64,000 nucleotides of DNA from Coptis chinensis (lineage: Eukaryota > Streptophyta > Magnoliopsida > Ranunculales > Ranunculaceae). This document shows, piece after piece, positions 40,942 through 60,550 of this stretch. How positions within the stretch are numbered: position 1 is the first letter of the stretch; each line of letters starts with the position of its first letter. The notes under the pieces were generated by a model. That model was not told where the DNA came from. It saw only the letters and a program-made list of their open reading frames with translations, and ran no database searches. The translations under genes and the position numbers were made by a program. The stretch lies in NCBI GenBank assembly GCA_015680905.1, contig CM027378.1, positions 104,987,501 through 105,051,500 of the forward strand, given 5' to 3'.

Positions 40942-40950
40942 TTATGATAT

Positions 40951-41215
40951 GGGTTAACTATCGATTTAACCTATGAACTTGGCAAAATATTCCACTTTGC
41001 CTCATGGACTTTTTTTAGAGCGAAATAAACCTAATACTTGCCATGAAATTCCACTTTGCCTATGCCCGTAGATTTCGGTCCACGGAATGATGATGTGGCC
41101 AGTTTATTTCATACGTGTTTTTTTATCAAATAATAAAAAAACAACATAAACAAGTGATTGTGCAAAATGAAACACATTACCACATCATGTGCATCTCAGC
41201 CTATCACGTGAGTCT
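40951..41215 (+). repeat. MULE-1 left TIR
   Basis: Includes AACTTGGCAAAATATTCCAC and GATTTCGGTCCACGGAATGA, both found inverted in the right TIR. It contains the transposase promoter region. Confidence 0.93.
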
Positions 41216-41611
41216 ATTCTCTCTTCTCCCACAAAATAGAAACAACCCATACACGGAAAAAGAAAAAATAAGGATAAAAAAAATAAAAAATGAGAGGGAA
41301 ACATAAAAAAAGGGAAAACGAGAAAGGAAGATTGCACTGAAATTGGAAGATCGAAATTGTGCTTCGACTTTGCATTGTAGGAGAATCAAGTAAGTGTAAT
41401 TGAAATTTAGAACTTTAGGGTTTGTGAACAAATTAGGGGTTTTATATAAGTTAGGGTTTTGTATGTTCTGATTTCATTCAATTATCATTTATTTTGTGTC
41501 CATTTGCTCTAAATCATTATGATTTGTTGTATTGATTCGAATAAATTAGATTTGTCTATTTTGTTATTGTAACATGAAAATGGTTCTAAACTTTCGTTTT
41601 ATTTGTTTAGT

Positions 41612-44600
41612 GGATGAATTTGTTTTGGAATTGCATTATGGGGAAGAATTTGTTGGAAATTTATAATATATTGGTGGAAAAGTGAATAGTGAATATCATG
41701 CTGGTTATTCAATGTTGTCTTTCATAGCTTTGACTGATATGGTTGCAAGTATTGGGTATAGAAATTTCACTAGGATTTACTATAGGGTTCCTGGTGAAGC
41801 TTTAGCCAGTGGTCTTAGGTTGATTCAGGGTGATAATGAAATTACAAAAATGTGTGATCAAGCTAAAGTTTTTGCTGGGATTGAAGTGTATGTAGACCAT
41901 ACTGAGGTTGGAATAGGGAGTGATGGAGATGATACAAGTGAGGATTATGCTATTTTTTATGAAGAAGAGGATTCAAGTGATGATGAGAGAGTGTTGCTAG
42001 TTTAGATCATTGTTCTGATAATGAAGAGGTTGTTGAGGTTAGAAAGAAGATTATAGAGTTGAGGAAGTATAAGAATAAGGGTAAAGCTAAGGCTAAGGTG
42101 GGCTGTGAGGAAGATGGGAATACAGTGGGCTCTGAGGAAGATGGGAATGCACCAGTTGAGGTCATTAGTGTTGATGTTGATGTAGGGGATATGGAGAATG
42201 ATGTCTTTACTGCTGTAGGGGATATAATAATGTGGAAGAAGATATTGAGATTGGTGATGATGACTATGATAGTCCTGAAGAAGATGAATTTGATGTGGAA
42301 GCAGATGTTACAAGAAAGAAAGATAGGTATCTTGTTTTCAATCCCAAAACTGAAGTTAAGTTACAAAAACCTGAACTTGGAATGAAGTTTGCAACCATGG
42401 AAGAGCTAAAGGAATGTTTAAGAAACTATGCAGTTTGCAATGGCCGTCCGATTAAATTTAAAAAGAATGAAGCTAGATTCTTAGAGGCTCATTGTGTTGA
42501 GAAGTGCACCTGGAAATTGTATGCAAGCTACATGCAAGGTGTGGAGATAGTTCAGGTGAAAACTTATATTAAAAAACATGCATGTTCAAGAGAGTTTAAG
42601 ATCAAGCTTGGGAATGCTAGGTGGCTTTCTAGGAGATACAAAGATAAGTTAATTGACACCCCAAGATGGAAGTTAACTGAGTTTGTGCTAGATGTAAGAA
42701 AGACTTATGGCATCAATGTGTCTCAATCATAATGCCTTAGGGCTAAGAGGCTTGCAACAGGAGAGATTGATAAGGCTTTGATTGAGCATTATAGTAAAGT
42801 GAGGGACTATGCTGGGGAAATAATGAGAAGGAATGAAGGACGTACTGTGAGGATTGAACTTCACTAGCCAGTTGAAGGTCAGCCTCCTGCCTATTTTCAG
42901 AGGATGTACATTGGATTTGAAAGTTTGATTAGAGGGTGGAAGCAGGGATGTAGACCTGTTTTTGGTCTTGATGGTTGTTTTTTGAAGGGGCATGTTAAAG
43001 GGCAATTACTTACAGCAGTTGGAAGGGATGGGAATAACCAAATGTACCCCATTGCATAGGCTGTGGTGGAAGGTGAAAACACTCAGTCTTGGTTATGGTT
43101 TTTGGGTTTGTTTGCTGCAGACATTGGGACATCAGATGGCCTTGGCATGACAATCTTATCAGATCAACAAAAGGGTCTTGTGCAAGCTATAACACATATG
43201 TTACCCTTGGCTGAGCACAGGTGTTGTGCTAGACATGTTTATGCCAACTTTAGAAAGAGGCATGGCGGTGCACAATTCAAGAATTTGTTTTGGCAAGTAT
43301 GTAAAAGTGGTATACCTGAAGAATTTGAGAATGTTATGGATGAAATCAAAGTCTTATCCGATGATGCATATGATTACCTAATGAAACAACAAAACCCAAA
43401 ACAATGGTGTAAAGCCTATTTCCTAAACAATTCAAGATGTGATGCAGTGGAGAACAATATGTGTGAGACATTCAATGCTTGTATATTGGGGGCAAGGGGC
43501 AAACCAATTATTTACATGTTAGAGGAGATAAGGCTATATGTAATGAATAGAATGCAGCAAAGGAGACAGATAGTTAATGGTTGGCAAGATGTTTGTGCAC
43601 CAAAAATTAGGGAAAAGATAGAGGCAGCTAAGGTGGACAGTAGGTACTGGATAGCTCATTACAATGGTGATACTGAGTTTGAAGTGAGGCATGTGGTCAA
43701 TACAGATGCTTATATAGTTGATACAAAAGCATGGACTTGTGCATGCAGGGGCTGGGATTTGAGTGGTATATCTTGTTGTCATGCAGTTACAACCATTGCT
43801 TTTAATGGTAAGAATCCTGATGACTTTGTGCAGTCATGCTACAAGGTGGAGACCATCAAGCAAGCTTATGAAGTAACCATGAAACCTTTAAATGGAGAGA
43901 AAATGTGGAGAAAAACCAAAATTAGTGGAATGGTGAAGTTTTTACCCCCACTTGATAGAAGAATGCCAGGAAGACCAAGAAGGAATAGAAGAAAGGATCC
44001 ACATGAATCCCCGAAGAAACCAGGGCATCTGTCAAGGAAGGGGGCACAAATGCATTGTTCTAATTGCAAGGAGGTTGGCCATAATAAAAAAGGTTGCAAA
44101 AAGGCATTTGTTCCAGCACCTCCACCAGCACAGTCAAGGAATAAGGTAAGTATGATATGATATTAATATATAGATAATTTTGTTTTCTTTGGAACATTGT
44201 TAATAATAACTTGATTTAATTAAAACTATTAATGCAGGCTAGGAAAAAAAGGAATACAGTTCAAACTGAGACAACACCAACTGATGAGAGTGCAACTACT
44301 TCAAAGAAAAGGGTGAAACCACCAGTTGGGTTTGGAGTGATTGATTGTCCAAACACTGGAGACCAATACATAAAGGTTAGTGCATTTGTTATTTTGAAAT
44401 GATTGTTATAATTTTGAAGTGATTGTTATAATTTTTATTTCCGCAGTTACCAGGTCAGAAAAGAGGAAAGTGGTCAAAGAAAAATGCACCAGATGTTGCT
44501 CCTGCTCCAGGGGATAGAGCAACAAATGCTGCTAGTGCTATTGCTACTTCACCAAGGAATAGAAGATCAAATGATGCAACTCTTTCAAGTCAAACTTCTT

Positions 44601-45082
44601 CATTTGGACCTCCACCTCTAAGCCAAACTTCTTCAAGTTCACCAAGGAATAGAAGATCAAATGCTGGTCCTGCTGCTGCCACTCCACCAAGAGTAACAAG
44701 GTCAAGTGTTATTGCTGTTGCTGCTGCCACTCCACCAAGGGTGACAAGGTCAACTGTTGCTGTTGCCACTCCACCAAGAGTAACAAGGTCAAGTGTTGCT
44801 GCTGCCACTCCACCAAGGGTGACAAGGTCAAGTGTTGTTGCTGCCACTCCACCAAGGGTAACAAGGTCAAGTCCTAGGAATTCAAGTCCATCAAGAGTTG
44901 AAAACATGTATGCCTGGTTTAACTGCAACAATGATCCAAGTCCATCAAAGGCTACAAGGTCAACTGATCATGCAGGTGCTGCAAGGTCAACTGCAGGTGC
45001 TACAAGTTCAAGTGTAGCTGGTGGTACTGGTAGAGGGAAAAAGACAGTAGGTGCAAGGCATAGTAGGGGGGAGAAGGAGTAG
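41612..45082 (+). pseudogene. MuDR-type transposase (MULE-1)
   Basis: Domains in order: a PB1-like N-terminus (41612-42005, YYRVPGEALASGLRLIQGDN); an acidic linker with two frameshifts (about 42000 and 42230); the MuDR DNA-binding region (MKFATMEELKECLRNYAVCN, then CVEKCTWKLYAS); the MULE catalytic domain with GLDGCFLKG (first Asp, about 42970) and ILSDQQKGL (second Asp); a SWIM finger CACRGWDLSGISCCHAV; a CCHC knuckle CSNCKEVGHNKKGC; then a tail. From 42232 to 44145 the frame is single but has stops at 42730, 42865 and 43057; the last replaces an expected Trp. Introns at 44146-44237 and 44376-44446 have GT/AG borders and keep phase 0. The tail (44447-45082) has five ATPPRVTRSS-like repeats. 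The first ATG is uncertain. Confidence 0.92.
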
Positions 45083-45587
45083 GTTAGGCTTTTGTTATTG
45101 CCTTGTATGTATGCTGCAAGGTGATTATGCTTTTGTTACTGTAGTTATTTTATTTTATTTTTTGTTTTGTTTTGGTGGATATGTATGCCAACAGAAACAG
45201 AAGAATGTTATGTTGCAATTTCTAAGTACTATGAGAAACTTTGCAGTTTTTTTGGGATAATATATGCTGTCGTTTTTTTGGATAATATGCTGCAGTATTA
45301 ACAGTGACTACAAACATAAGAGATTTTCATATATGCATTTTATCGTATATGTATTATGTCATCTCCCGTACTATGTTTGTTCTTTTTTTGTATTGTTTAA
45401 TTTTTAATTTTTTTTCACTCTTCCGAGGGTTTTAGGAATTGTCGGTCTGTTAGTTGTCAAGCTAATTTTGGTTGCAATCTCAAGAATAACAACCAAGAAG
45501 GCAATCATTAAATTGGTGTCAAGTTTTGTTTAGAATGTTGCCGGGTATTTCTCAGATCGGGGCTCTACTAATATCCTGTGTGTGAAC

Positions 45588-45661
45588 CTATGGCTAAGTG
45601 GTTGTGCGTCCCACCTCACATGTGTCATGCGGGAGATTGTAGATTCAAAGCTCACTATAAG
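45588..45661 (+). repeat. tRNA-like SINE fragment beside the captured exon
   Basis: CCTATGGCTAAGTGGTTGTG resembles a pol III box A and GTAGATTCAAAGCTC a box B, in the spacing of a tRNA-derived SINE. It ends at the AG that precedes the captured exon, so it probably sat in the host gene's intron before capture. Confidence 0.5.
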
Positions 45662-46059
45662 ACACTGAGATACTTCCCTGCAGACAACAGAAAATATTGC
45701 TATACACTTGACGTCAAAACTAGGACGACTCGATATCTTGTCAGAGCGAGCTTCATATATGGGAATTTTGACAACAATAACGTCTACCCAAAGTTTGACT
45801 TATCACTTGGGGCAACCCATTAGTCGACCATAGTTATTTCTGATGCTACTACCATAGAGATGCAAGAGTTAATTTTTTTGGCTACGTCACCTATAGTTTC
45901 AGTCTGTTTATCCAATGCTACAACTGGGCAACCTTTTATTTCTGCTCTTGAGCTTCGCCCATTCAATGGTTCTATTTATTACACCAATCAGGAGACACAT
46001 TTTTTTCTCAGTGTGGCTGCTAGAATTAACTTTGGGGCGGAGAGTGATGAGCCTGTCAG
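45662..46059 (+). pseudogene. Captured exon of a malectin-like LRR receptor kinase
   Basis: The frame gives [49 protein letters not shown], then MQELIFLATSPIVSVCLSNA, LELRPFNGSIYYTNQETHFF and ARINFGAESDEPVR. This is the malectin-like extracellular domain of plant LRR receptor-like kinases (the At1g67720/At2g37050 type, from memory of the family). An AG precedes it and GT follows CAG at 46059, with phase 2, so the piece looks like a genomic exon with intron flanks, not a cDNA. A TAG at 45821 replaces the Trp expected after GATH. There is no kinase, signal peptide or membrane segment. It lies wholly inside MULE-1. Confidence 0.88.
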
Positions 46060-46456
46060 GTTTGGTCTCTATTTGAGTTATGGATTGATGTTGTTTTTTG
46101 TTCTTAACTTTTGAATGAACCACGACAGTAGTAGAGCTTGAGAGCAAAATAACTCTGCTCTTGGTTTTATTCATTACTTTCAGTAAATATCTGTCTCCCC
46201 TCATACTTTGTAATCATGTTACTTTGTAATCTGTCGCCCATTCAATTGCAATCCACTTGTGGATGATGCCACCAGGTCGTACCAACATATATGGTAAGGG
46301 ACCCAACAGAAATTGACGTTGAAAGATTAAAGAAGTGCACAAATAGTAACTAAAAACTAAAACTCTGATCCATTCCATTATAGTGACGTTACAATCAAAT
46401 TGGAAATCATAACACAACTTACAAACTCTACTTGCATCCACCCTAATTCAACATCC

Positions 46457-46774
46457 CTACTTCAACCAAATAAAGAAAACAACAAATAGAAGAAACACAA
46501 TCAACCATTTTTTCGTTTCATTCTTCTTCTTCAGCATCGTGTTTTTGTTTTTCAACTCAACAATTGTCTTCTCAAGCTCCTCGATTTTTAGTATATAAGG
46601 TGGAGGAGGAGGGGGCGGATCAATCCAATCAAATGTCCTGCACTTTCTAGGAGTATAGTAGTTGATACATCCTACAAATTGTCTGCCAAAGTTCTTCTCA
46701 TTCCATGAAGTTTTAAGAGACACTAGTTCTCCACACTCACAAGTACCAGACGAATTGATTGACTGTTGAGACAT
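46457..46774 (-). CDS. Small GRF zinc-finger membrane protein of MULE-1
   Basis: 105 codons without breaks. Residues of about 12-51 form a GRF-type zinc finger: CECG, SWNEKNFGRQFVGC, then CRTFDWID. A Pro run (PPPPPPP) is followed by a coiled coil (LKIEELEKTIVELKNKNTML) and a C-terminal hydrophobic segment (WLIVFLLFVVFFIWL) that should anchor it in a membrane. Small plant proteins of the same layout (At4g04775 type) are known; their role is unclear to me. It starts 142 bases inside the right TIR and converges on the transposase, the place of mudrB in maize MuDR. A role in transposition is inference only. It could be an unrelated captured gene. Confidence 0.75.
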   Translation of the reverse strand: MSQQSINSSGTCECGELVSLKTSWNEKNFGRQFVGCINYYTPRKCRTFDWIDPPPPPPPYILKIEELEKTIVELKNKNTMLKKKNETKKWLIVFLLFVVFFIWLK

Positions 46775-46915
46775 ATATATTTGACTTAAAACAACTAAAA
46801 GAAATGATAGAGATTGAAGAGAAACGTGCAGAAATTTAAGAGAAAAAAAATGAGCATTGGAGAATGAAGAAGACGTCCCTGGTTTCCTTTTATTACAGAA
46901 GAGAAGACCGTTAGA

Positions 46916-47171
46916 GACTCACGTGATACGCAAGTGATGTGGTGATGTGTTTCATTTTGCACAATCACTTGTTTATGTTGTTTTTTGATTATTTGATAAA
47001 AAAACACGTATGAAATAAATTGACCATGTCATCATTCCGTGGACCGAAATCTACCGGCATAGGCAAAGTGGAATTTCATGGCAAGTATTAGGTTTATTTC
47101 GCTCTAAAAAAAGTTCATGGGGCAAAGTGGAATATTTTGCCAAGTTCATAGGTTAAATCGATAGTTAATCC
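46916..47171 (-). repeat. MULE-1 right TIR
   Basis: Inverted partner of 40951-41215, with a few substitutions and small indels. The start of the GRF gene (46774) lies 142 bases inside it. Confidence 0.93.
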
Positions 47172-47180
47172 TTATGATAT

Positions 47181-47494: not shown

Positions 47495-47952
47495 GGGTTA
47501 GTTAGACTTACCCCCCCATTACTAGTTCCAACTAGGGATAAACCCCCAATTTTCAAAAATTTTAACCCCCATTTTAGCGTCTTGTCCAAGTTAACAAGTC
47601 TTGACTGTTATCTCGAAAGTCAACTGTAGTGAAAAGACCAAACTACCCTTAGCCATGACTTTGAGTCATCACAATAGGTCAAATTAGACACGTGTCACGA
47701 TCTCCAACGAAAAAATCAAAGGTCAGAATTGATCCAAAGAAAAAGACACCAACTACCCCTGATCTTGTAATTACTCTTTTGCCACCGAACTATTTACCAA
47801 AGTTTGAACTATGAAACACGTGTCACCATCTTGTGAAAGTAATCCAACGGTCATAATAGATTACCAAAGAAATTACTTCTCAGTCAAAGTAGATAGACAC
47901 GTGGAGTCATCCAACGCATTCTATCCAACAGATTGAAACTAAAGTAAAACTA
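47495..47952 (+). repeat. MULE-2 left TIR
   Basis: Contains ACACGTGTCACGATCTCC, AACTACCCCTGATCTTGTAA and GACACGTGGAGTCATCCAAC, each found inverted at 55800-56275. The plus-strand zinc-knuckle gene starts 75 bases inside it. Confidence 0.93.
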
Positions 47953-55799: not shown

Positions 55800-56275
55800 C
55801 TGCAGTTTAGTTTCGATCCGTTGGATAGAATGCGCTGGATGACTCCACGTGTCTATCTACTTTGACTGAGAAGTAATTTCTTTGGTAATATATTATGACC
55901 ATTGGATTACTTTCACAGGATGGCGACACGTGTTTCACAGTTCAAACTTTGGTAAATAGTTCGGTGGTAAAAGAGTAATTACAAGATCAGGGGTAGTTGG
56001 TGTCTTTTTCTTTTGATCAATTCTCGACCTTTGATTTTTTCGTTGGAGATCGTGGACACGGTCTAATTTGACTGGTGTGATGACTCAAAGTCATGGCTAA
56101 GGGTAGTTTGGTCTTTTCACTACAGTTGACTTTTCGAGATAACAAATAAGACTTGTTGACTTGGACGGCACGTTAAAATGGGGGGGGGGGGGGTGACCCT
56201 AATATTTTTGAAAATGGGGGGGTATCCCTAATTGGAACTAGTAATGGGGGGGGGGGGGGTAAGTCTAACTAACCC
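55800..56275 (-). repeat. MULE-2 right TIR with two G14 runs
   Basis: Inverted partner of 47495-47952. The C-runs of the left copy (CCCCC) are expanded here to G14 at 56180-56193 and at 56246-56259. Confidence 0.93.
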
Positions 56276-58126: not shown

Positions 58127-58754
58127 CATTGGTATATTTGTCATTGAAAAGAATGTTTAATGAGACTTCTTTCTGGATTCTTCGATAGTGACTATATTTT
58201 TCCAGTTAGTGATTTATAGTGTTACTTTTTCTAGTTGTTGTAAACAAACAATCCCAAAAAAAATAGAGCATACAAACTCCGCCTCATGATTCTTTAGCAA
58301 TGCACTAACCAAAGCAAAATTCCCTAATCACTAAGGTCACAATACGGTTTTCCCATGCTAAATGTTGCCCCATGCTAAATGTTGACTCCACTTAGCCCAA
58401 GACCTTTTGCCATCGAGTATGACCATCTGAATTTCCCTCGATTCATGACTTCCATTTGTATCAGTTTTGAGATTCTGACGTTTACGTCATAACCTAACAA
58501 GTCATGACAGCATGTATTCGAAGGGATTATTGTGTAAGATTATAAGTACTAATTAATTAGAAATAAATATATATGTTAGTGAGTGTTTTTATTTCTATTT
58601 TCTCATTTTCAAAAATTAATTTCATATTCCTGTAGGACTATTTACTCCTCAAGTGCATAAACACTTCAATATGCTCATATTAATTGGCAAATTTCCAGTA
58701 CCAATGAAAATTGGTCAGGTTTCACCAGTTTTTGTAATATTGTGCTTGAATATT
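58127..58754. other. Unassigned intergenic DNA
   Basis: A/T rich; CCATGCTAAATGTTG is duplicated in tandem near 58353-58385. No gene seen. Confidence 0.5.
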
Positions 58755-60374
58755 GTTAAGAGTCCAAAACTGTAGTTTTAACTCCTTAATAATATTACAT
58801 GTAGACCAATTATGTTTATAATAAATAAGAGTTAGTATTGTTTATATATTTTTGTGTATTTTAGGTCTTGGAGTCAATTATGTGAAGAAATATGACACTT
58901 TTGCAAGAGAAATGAGCAACGGTTGGTTGCTAAGAAGTTCTATGGTTAAAGCCCAAGTTTCAAGGAGAAAAAATCTTTTTAAAACCCAGTCAAAGCTGAA
59001 AAGTCAAAGTCGACGCGGGCAGAAATAGAGCATAAAAGTCAATAGAACTTTCGCAGGCCGTATCTTTAATTTGGACTCAGACCTCAGAATTTGGCCTATT
59101 ATATGTCAAAATGACTGGCTCGGAAAGAGCTTTCTAATGGTCTAGGCCTTGATCTAATCAAAGGAGTAAAATTAGATGAAAAGGCTATTGCTTAAACAGC
59201 ATGAGAGTAATGATTTTAAATATAATCAATATGGTGAAAACTAATATTGAATATATTCTAAATTAAACAAGGGCAAATAAATATTAAGATGTTAATATGA
59301 AGAAAGAATTAGGGAGATTTGAAATCCACTTTGATTAATCCCTAACATGCTAGTATAGAGTTTGTTGTAACCCTAATATTTATGTTTTCACACAAGGTTC
59401 AACATAAATGTTAAGTCTTTTTATCCCTAATTATTCATGGTATCTCTAGACAACTAATAATTAGTATGAGAGGAAGTTGAAACCCATTCTCATGGTGAAT
59501 GAACTACCCTATAGTCTAGGTTTATTTTACTTATTGCTAAATAGAAAACCCTAGACTTGAAGCTCTTTAATATAACAATTCTATACTGACACATTAAGTC
59601 TTCATCAAAGCTTCAATCAAACCCCTCTAATGGAAGTTTAGCTATGGTTCATTAGACTATCAAAGAATAAATAATGAGAACAAGAAAACATAATTAAAGG
59701 AATAATTGTATTAAAATAACTTGAATTGTATTAATAGTGGCTATACTAATAAAACATAAACTAGGTTAAACTAAAGAGAAGAGGTAGGAGTCTCTTAGAG
59801 TTTTGCCTTAGTCCTCTTTATATAGGAGAGGGCTAGGTTTACAATTTCATGCATGGGCCTTGGAGCTATGTTTTGGGCCACTAAATCAAGCCCAAAACCT
59901 AATTACTTAAGTCCAAAAAAAGTTTCTCTACTAGAAATTACTGCAACAACCTTTTTATCCACCTTTACTCCTTTGATTGGATCAAAGCCTGGACCATTAG
60001 AAAGCACTTTTTGGGTCGGTCATTTTGACATATAATAGGCCCAATTCCGAGGTCTGAGTTCAAATATATGGCCTGCGGAAGTTCTATTGACTTTTATGCT
60101 CTATTTCTGCTCGCGTTGACTTTGACTTTTCAGCTTTGACTGGGCTTTAAAAAGGCGTTTTCTCCTTGAAACTTGGGCTTTAACCATATAACTTCTTAGC
60201 AACCAATTTTTGCTCTTTTCTCTTGCAAAAGTGATATATTTCTTCATATAGTTGACTCCAAGACCTGAAATACACAAAAGTACGTAAATAGTACTAACTC
60301 TTATTTATTATAAATATAATTGGTCTAAATATAATATTATTAAGGGGTTAAAACTACAGTTTTGGGCTCTTATC
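58755..60374. mobile_element. Foldback element with inverted arms of about 440 bp
   Basis: Left arm 58755-59198 and right arm 59938-60374 are inverted copies. Examples are TAAGAGTCCAAAACTGTAG against CTACAGTTTTGGGCTCTTA, and GCTGAAAAGTCAAAGTC against GACTTTGACTTTTCAGC. The 740-bp centre is A/T rich and non-coding. Long arms and an empty centre fit a non-autonomous MULE or foldback element. No matching flanking duplication was found, perhaps because it lies at the truncated edge of an LTR. Confidence 0.75.
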
Positions 60375-60550
60375 AACTTCACACATATTTAAAGGGTGAA
60401 GAGTTATCAATAAAAAAAGAAAATAAATAGTTAAATAGACTTGTGAGCTATAGAGGTCAAAGGTTAAGGCTCCTCCATCAACCTTATTTCTTACTTTTGT
60501 CATTTTATTTGTTGTTTCACACAATTGGTACTAACGAGTACGTACCAAAG

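Follow-up and report, generated by a model that had tools for sequence, protein, structure and literature searches.

Foreign DNA of about 1 kb, mostly from a malectin-like receptor kinase gene, in a Mutator-like element of Coptis chinensis

Mutator-like elements (MULEs) of grapevine and other species have been described with ULP sequence beside a transposase ORF, and one grapevine Mutator family contains both intronic and exonic cellulose synthase sequence, with presence of a transposase not stated there; the same source calls transduplications common in all superfamilies (PMC2528002). A 2026 review covers Kaonashi, the Pack-MULEs of rice and siRNA from captured sequences in maize (PMC13317346), and a further paper describes Pack-TYPE elements as non-autonomous (PMC8903248). 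For the Pack-TIRs of animals, capture has been attributed to gap filling or to fork stalling with template switching, the latter coupled to transposition being favoured for multicopy cases (PMC8277862).

The window analysed here is a stretch of 64,000 nucleotides (C2:104987501-105051500 in a 935.6-Mb assembly) containing a MULE of 6,221 bp at 40951-47171. The best explanation overall, which we consider very probably correct, is that roughly 1 kb of foreign DNA, mostly from a kinase gene on contig C7, entered a MULE whose mudrA-like and GRF-like genes are convergent. The element resembles Pack-MULEs of rice and other plants in its terminal inverted repeats (TIRs) and 9-bp duplication around host fragments and in a cargo drawn from more than one source; unlike strict Pack-MULEs, it holds, beside its captured fragment, a mudrA-like gene, although broken, and one further gene, and so departs from their non-autonomous make-up. 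A host gene piece beside a transposase gene is also what characterizes the transduplicating MULEs (KI-MULE/Kaonashi of Arabidopsis, and grapevine), but KI-MULE is a non-TIR element with Ulp1 cargo, whereas the present element has TIRs and its cargo is a malectin-like kinase exon that is recent, non-coding and present in two copies. No Ulp1 domain was found among the Pfam hits of the six window pieces scanned. With the animal Pack-TIRs (PMC8277862), it would share a break in the element and a template switch to filler, along with short overlaps or new bases at the joins; it differs from them in being a plant MULE whose donor lies on another chromosome, in having two copies and in showing the tip of a long terminal repeat (LTR) at one junction. 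The first-pass annotation of this DNA had treated the coexistence of a gene fragment with a transposase gene as less common. A mudrA-like gene is present, although disrupted, and the implied rarity is not supported: the combination is a known one, since such MULEs are published (PMC2528002 and PMC13317346). A malectin cargo captured by a Mutator-like element was found in no paper retrieved by those words in the literature searched.

The ends and genes of the element are as follows.

40942-40950, no strand: left 9-bp target-site duplication TTATGATAT, identical to 47172-47180
40951-41198, plus strand: 5′ TIR, beginning GGGTTAACTATC, outer edge set by the duplication
41667-45082, plus strand: mudrA-like transposase gene (DBD_Tnp_Mut, MULE, SWIM), disrupted, from Pfam and ORFs
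46460-46771, minus strand: second, convergent MULE gene, a GRF-zinc-finger-like ORF, from the ORF and a sub-threshold PF06839 match
46924-47171, minus strand: 3′ TIR, from arm comparison and the duplication edge
47172-47180, no strand: right 9-bp target-site duplication TTATGATAT, identical to the left one

Long TIRs, a 9-bp duplication and mudrA-type transposase domains together place the element among the MULEs. The inverted arms (40943-41198 and 46924-47179) extend over 256 nt, a length that includes the duplication, and are 94% complementary, while TTATGATAT is perfect on both sides, so the earlier claim of an element with both TIRs and a 9-bp duplication is borne out. The DBD_Tnp_Mut, MULE and SWIM domains of the mudrA-like gene score above the Pfam cut-offs; its outer limits and introns were set by eye from the ORFs, the Pfam scan covered six window pieces, and chance in the homology claims was judged by E-values throughout. 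Read in one frame, 42202-44160 meets stops at 42730, 42865, 43057 and 44158, the last of which lies past the presumed splice site. A full transposase from the window copy is unlikely, because the other three stops break the conserved mudrA-like part, and the copies on contigs C6 and C5 likewise have only broken ORFs for this gene. The GRF-like ORF matches PF06839 with an E-value of 4.1e-05 and 24.0 bits, below the cut-off of 25.9 bits. The same convergent ORF occurs in the C5 copy. Among the literature matches listed, none mentions a GRF zinc finger together with MULE or mudrA. The foreign DNA sits between the 3′ ends of these two convergent genes.

The window holds other inverted repeats. A second long inverted-repeat element of ~8.7 kb lies directly downstream (47511-47943 / 55806-56252; arm pieces 87-100% complementary), and a third inverted pair (58753-59191 / 59943-60376; 315 nt at 90% and 123 nt at 85%) is foldback-like, with 751 bases between its inner arms.

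Foreign DNA occupies 45294-46308, and in it two collinear pieces, which we call A and B and which make up ~925 bp, derive from a single malectin-like receptor kinase gene on contig C7. Its parts, compared with a 9-kb stretch of C7 (L007), are as follows.

45294-45656, plus strand: captured piece A, donor DNA upstream of C7 exon 2 (L007 4223-4580, 331/370 identical, 89%)
45657-45660, no strand: internal junction with the 4-base filler ATAA; the C6 copy has the identical junction
45661-46059, plus strand: exon part of captured piece B, malectin-like domain, the 3′ 396 of the 532 bases of C7 exon 2 plus a 3-base insertion
46060-46221, plus strand: remainder of captured piece B, the start of C7 intron 2 (GT...), a real donor splice edge
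46222-46248, no strand: junction filler of 27 bases, starting with a repeat of CTTTGTAATC; the C6 copy holds 8 extra bases
46249-46308, minus strand: terminal 60 bp of a Copia-type LTR with its tip ..CCCAACA at 46308, from repeat comparison

Piece A presumably represents intron 1 of the kinase gene. Piece B is much closer to the donor, with 551 of 569 bases identical (97%) between 45653-46221 and L007 5535-6100. Between the two, ~960 bp of donor DNA are absent from the element (954 by alignment ends, 962 if B starts at L007 5543). This identity, together with matches to PF12819 in the frame pieces on either side of a TAG stop at 45821-45823 (E 7.8e-17 and 2.2e-15), establishes the segment as a malectin-like receptor kinase exon, as had been proposed from the letters. 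The corresponding exon fragment of the C6 copy carries a +1 frameshift, and dN/dS for the two MULE copies against C7 is 0.44 (5 counted changes) and 0.57 (12). A coding role for the fragment was considered and rejected on account of the stop or frameshift in both copies, and we infer that it is now non-coding passenger DNA.

The parental locus that capture implies was found on C7. Searched as DNA against the genome, 45588-46075 found five matches: the window itself, the C6 copy (96%), two pieces on C7 and one on C8 (79%). A protein search gave 13, comprising C7 at 100%, a paralog on C8 at 79%, three from the window and C6 MULEs, and eight others at 28-34%. The parent is an apparently intact malectin-like receptor kinase gene, its integrity judged, and only partly checked, from exons 2 and 3 and five downstream pieces. 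Exon 2 comprises L007 5407-5938 (532 bp, with edges set by AG/GT and frame), and exons 2 and 3 each hold one half of the malectin-like domain by Pfam. Two of the five downstream ORF pieces pass the Pfam kinase cut-off, two match below it and one has no match, and the four that match run along the kinase profile in order; the donor thus combines a malectin-like extracellular domain with kinase exons, with two of five kinase pieces above the cut-off. Across the region shared with the C8 paralog, 8 of 12 matching stretches are collinear, the other four being a locally repeated or inverted stretch. Exon 2 appears constrained between C7 and C8 (dN/dS 0.114), on a dS of 1.39 that is near saturation. 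The transfer ran from the kinase gene into the MULE, since the remainder of the gene stands at C7 and the 9-kb L007 gave no match to MULE sequence outside the insert.

How far the fragment preserves the borders of the gene differs at its two ends. At the 3′ end, the split Arg codon (AG|G) and the GT that follows 46059, both reported previously, hold, since C7 exon 3 starts with G and continues R-Y-P-D. At the 5′ end, the AG at 45660-45661 had been read as a splice acceptor, but the equivalent bases of C7 fall within exon 2, 136 bp past the exon start, which was itself placed by the AG at L007 5405-5406. The first 136 bases (26%) of the exon are missing from the MULE and the 3′ 74% are present; the supposed acceptor falls on a rearrangement join, next to the 4-base filler. 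The view that the segment was copied as genomic DNA with intron edges therefore stands for the exon plus flanking non-coding DNA and for the 3′ edge, and fails for the 5′ intron edge. A tRNA-like SINE had also been proposed in the upstream part. ARAGORN finds no tRNA in 45400-45800, which leaves this proposal unsupported. The stretch in question falls within piece A and is present also upstream of C7 exon 2; it came with the captured DNA, since the same stretch precedes the C7 exon. In a genome DNA search that skipped very common words, 45588-45656 matched only the window, C6 and C7. Overall, the original observation is confirmed and its interpretation partly supported: the core was right, the 5′ edge wrong and the SINE unsupported.

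The last 60 bases of the insert have a different source. Nine further genomic matches to 46249-46308, at 84-93%, raised the prospect of a second captured gene, a candidate we rejected on finding the segment to be an LTR end. Two pairs among these matches, one on C9 spaced by 4.9 kb and one on C5 spaced by 4.2 kb, are repeat copies of 752/767 and 721 bp, and the C9 pair has TG...CA ends with AAATG on both outer sides. A Copia-type gag ORF (PF14223, E 2.7e-34) stands beside one copy of the family. The segment is therefore the tip of a Copia LTR, because its matches are paired repeat ends with an adjoining gag ORF; its presumed strand follows the gag ORF adjoining another copy of the repeat. The tip base at 46308 directly adjoins MULE base 46309, where the match to the C5 copy resumes. 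The origin of the filler was sought by comparing 46222-46262 with 15 sequences, and beyond the window and C6 only short, chance-sized matches were obtained.

Sequence matching the 3′ body of the MULE occurs at eight places in the genome: three long close copies (window, C6 and C5), two short deletion derivatives and three distant matches at 66-70%. The C6 copy holds the complete insert, its joins identical except for the 8 additional bases in the filler, and is flanked by its own perfect 9-bp duplication, TTATGAAGC. The C5 copy (L039) also has its own perfect 9-bp duplication, ATCTTGATG, and has no insert: it matches the window in pieces up to 45294 and then over 46309-47171, with nothing between. 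It is without ~95 bp near 43584-43678, while ~70 bp at its insertion point, seen in the C5 copy only, are missing from the window. Because this close copy has no insert, the capture is derived. In all, 302 of 5017 aligned bases differ between window and C5. Their divergence is ~4-7% in most sections and reaches 7.2% in 44144-45082, 11.2% in 45083-45290 and 10.5% in 46461-46923; the C5 copy may be a mosaic. The short derivatives, L040 (C38:238.1 kb) and L041 (C8:16.4 kb), have the duplication CTTGGGAAC in common and are 97.6-97.7% identical in their main matches, flanks included; they look like a single locus that the assembly contains twice, or like a segmental duplication. On C3, a ~600-bp foldback of the same TIRs (L043, about 34.202 Mb) lies inside a longer palindrome of flanking DNA, and a further TIR pair occurs at C3:51.23 Mb.

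These copies bear on whether the fragment was captured recently and once. Its occurrence in two of the three long close copies speaks for the alternative that it is an old component of the MULE family, passed on to every copy, but the third, on C5, shows none of it at this position. Searching with mudrA gave at least 41 matches (best 40 of 246 candidates scored), four of which belong to the window, C6 and C5 copies, and by coordinates no other mudrA place among the matches listed lies near a malectin match. Piece B, moreover, resembles C7 (97% identical) more closely than the window element resembles C5. We accordingly give the old-module history almost no credence. Hardly more credible is a history of two independent captures, or of gene conversion between MULE copies that had already split. 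It draws on the difference between window and C6 being smaller in piece B (3.0%) than in the body of the element (204/5043, 4.05%), but piece A differs more (7.7%), pieces A and B together (44/914, 4.8%) come near the body value, and the internal junction and LTR piece are common to both copies, with only the filler differing, by 8 bases. A single capture is most likely and strongly supported, as is a later transposition of the loaded element: the same junctions in window and C6 point to one capture before the copies split, and the separate 9-bp duplication of each points to later transposition.

Since the divergences of the body and of A+B are close, cargo and carrier are about equally old. 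Across 902 sites compared among window, C6 and C7, 21 changes are private to the window, 21 are private to C6, 12 set C7 apart and 1 site differs in all, counts that favour one capture event. Piece A (345 sites) holds 16 of the window-private and 9 of the C6-private changes, and piece B (557 sites) holds 12 of the C6-private ones. If rates were equal, 21 private changes in each MULE copy would be more than 12 changes on the C7 side permit, an excess that a slower-evolving donor would account for. Capture thus preceded, probably not by long, the separation of the window and C6 copies. At about 7e-9 substitutions per site and year, a divergence of 2.3% per lineage corresponds to roughly 3 million years, as an order of magnitude only.

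One join ends exactly at the LTR tip, which suggests that the Copia insertion came before the capture. Break repair with template switching is likely as the mechanism, and we infer the order Copia insertion, break and repair: a Copia element would have inserted into the MULE between the 3′ ends of its genes, and a break at this insertion would have been repaired by copying the C7 gene with template switches, a repair that would have erased most of the retrotransposon along with the ~70 bp still seen in C5. Transposition of the loaded element would then have given the window and C6 copies. GAAAT, read from the C5 copy, is our guess at the Copia target site, the left half of any duplication being gone. 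The ~960 donor bp may have been deleted once captured instead of being skipped by template switching, and fork stalling with template switching and transposition, in place of break repair, could on this analysis apply equally well.

Whether the fragment might act on its parent was raised in the first-pass annotation, which suggested antisense or small RNAs. The fragment has the orientation of mudrA and runs opposite to the GRF gene; read-through from mudrA would give a sense kinase-fragment transcript and read-through from the GRF gene an antisense one. Small RNAs against C7 are possible in principle: 426 of the 905 24-mers of 45294-46221 match C7 exactly, the longest exact run being 105 bp, and the location between convergent genes allows antisense read-through. 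None of 376 exon 24-mers matches the C8 stretch (L008). That such RNAs silence or tune the C7 kinase in trans is nevertheless unlikely in our estimation, given that the transposase gene is disrupted and that only two insert-bearing copies exist in the assembly. Still less probable is a fuller scheme making the MULE a recent trans-regulator, in which antisense transcripts running through from the GRF gene would feed small RNAs against exon 2 and the Copia insertion would have been the triggering break.

We judge this case to be a well-resolved, ordinary instance of a familiar process, one that leaves knowledge of MULEs in general unchanged. Its value lies in having the donor gene, an insert-free copy and two loaded copies in one assembly, with junctions readable to a few bases. 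The locus may serve as a test case for the gain of host DNA by a MULE near an LTR insertion, through break repair or through fork stalling with template switching, and likewise for asking if small RNAs arise from a captured receptor-kinase exon.
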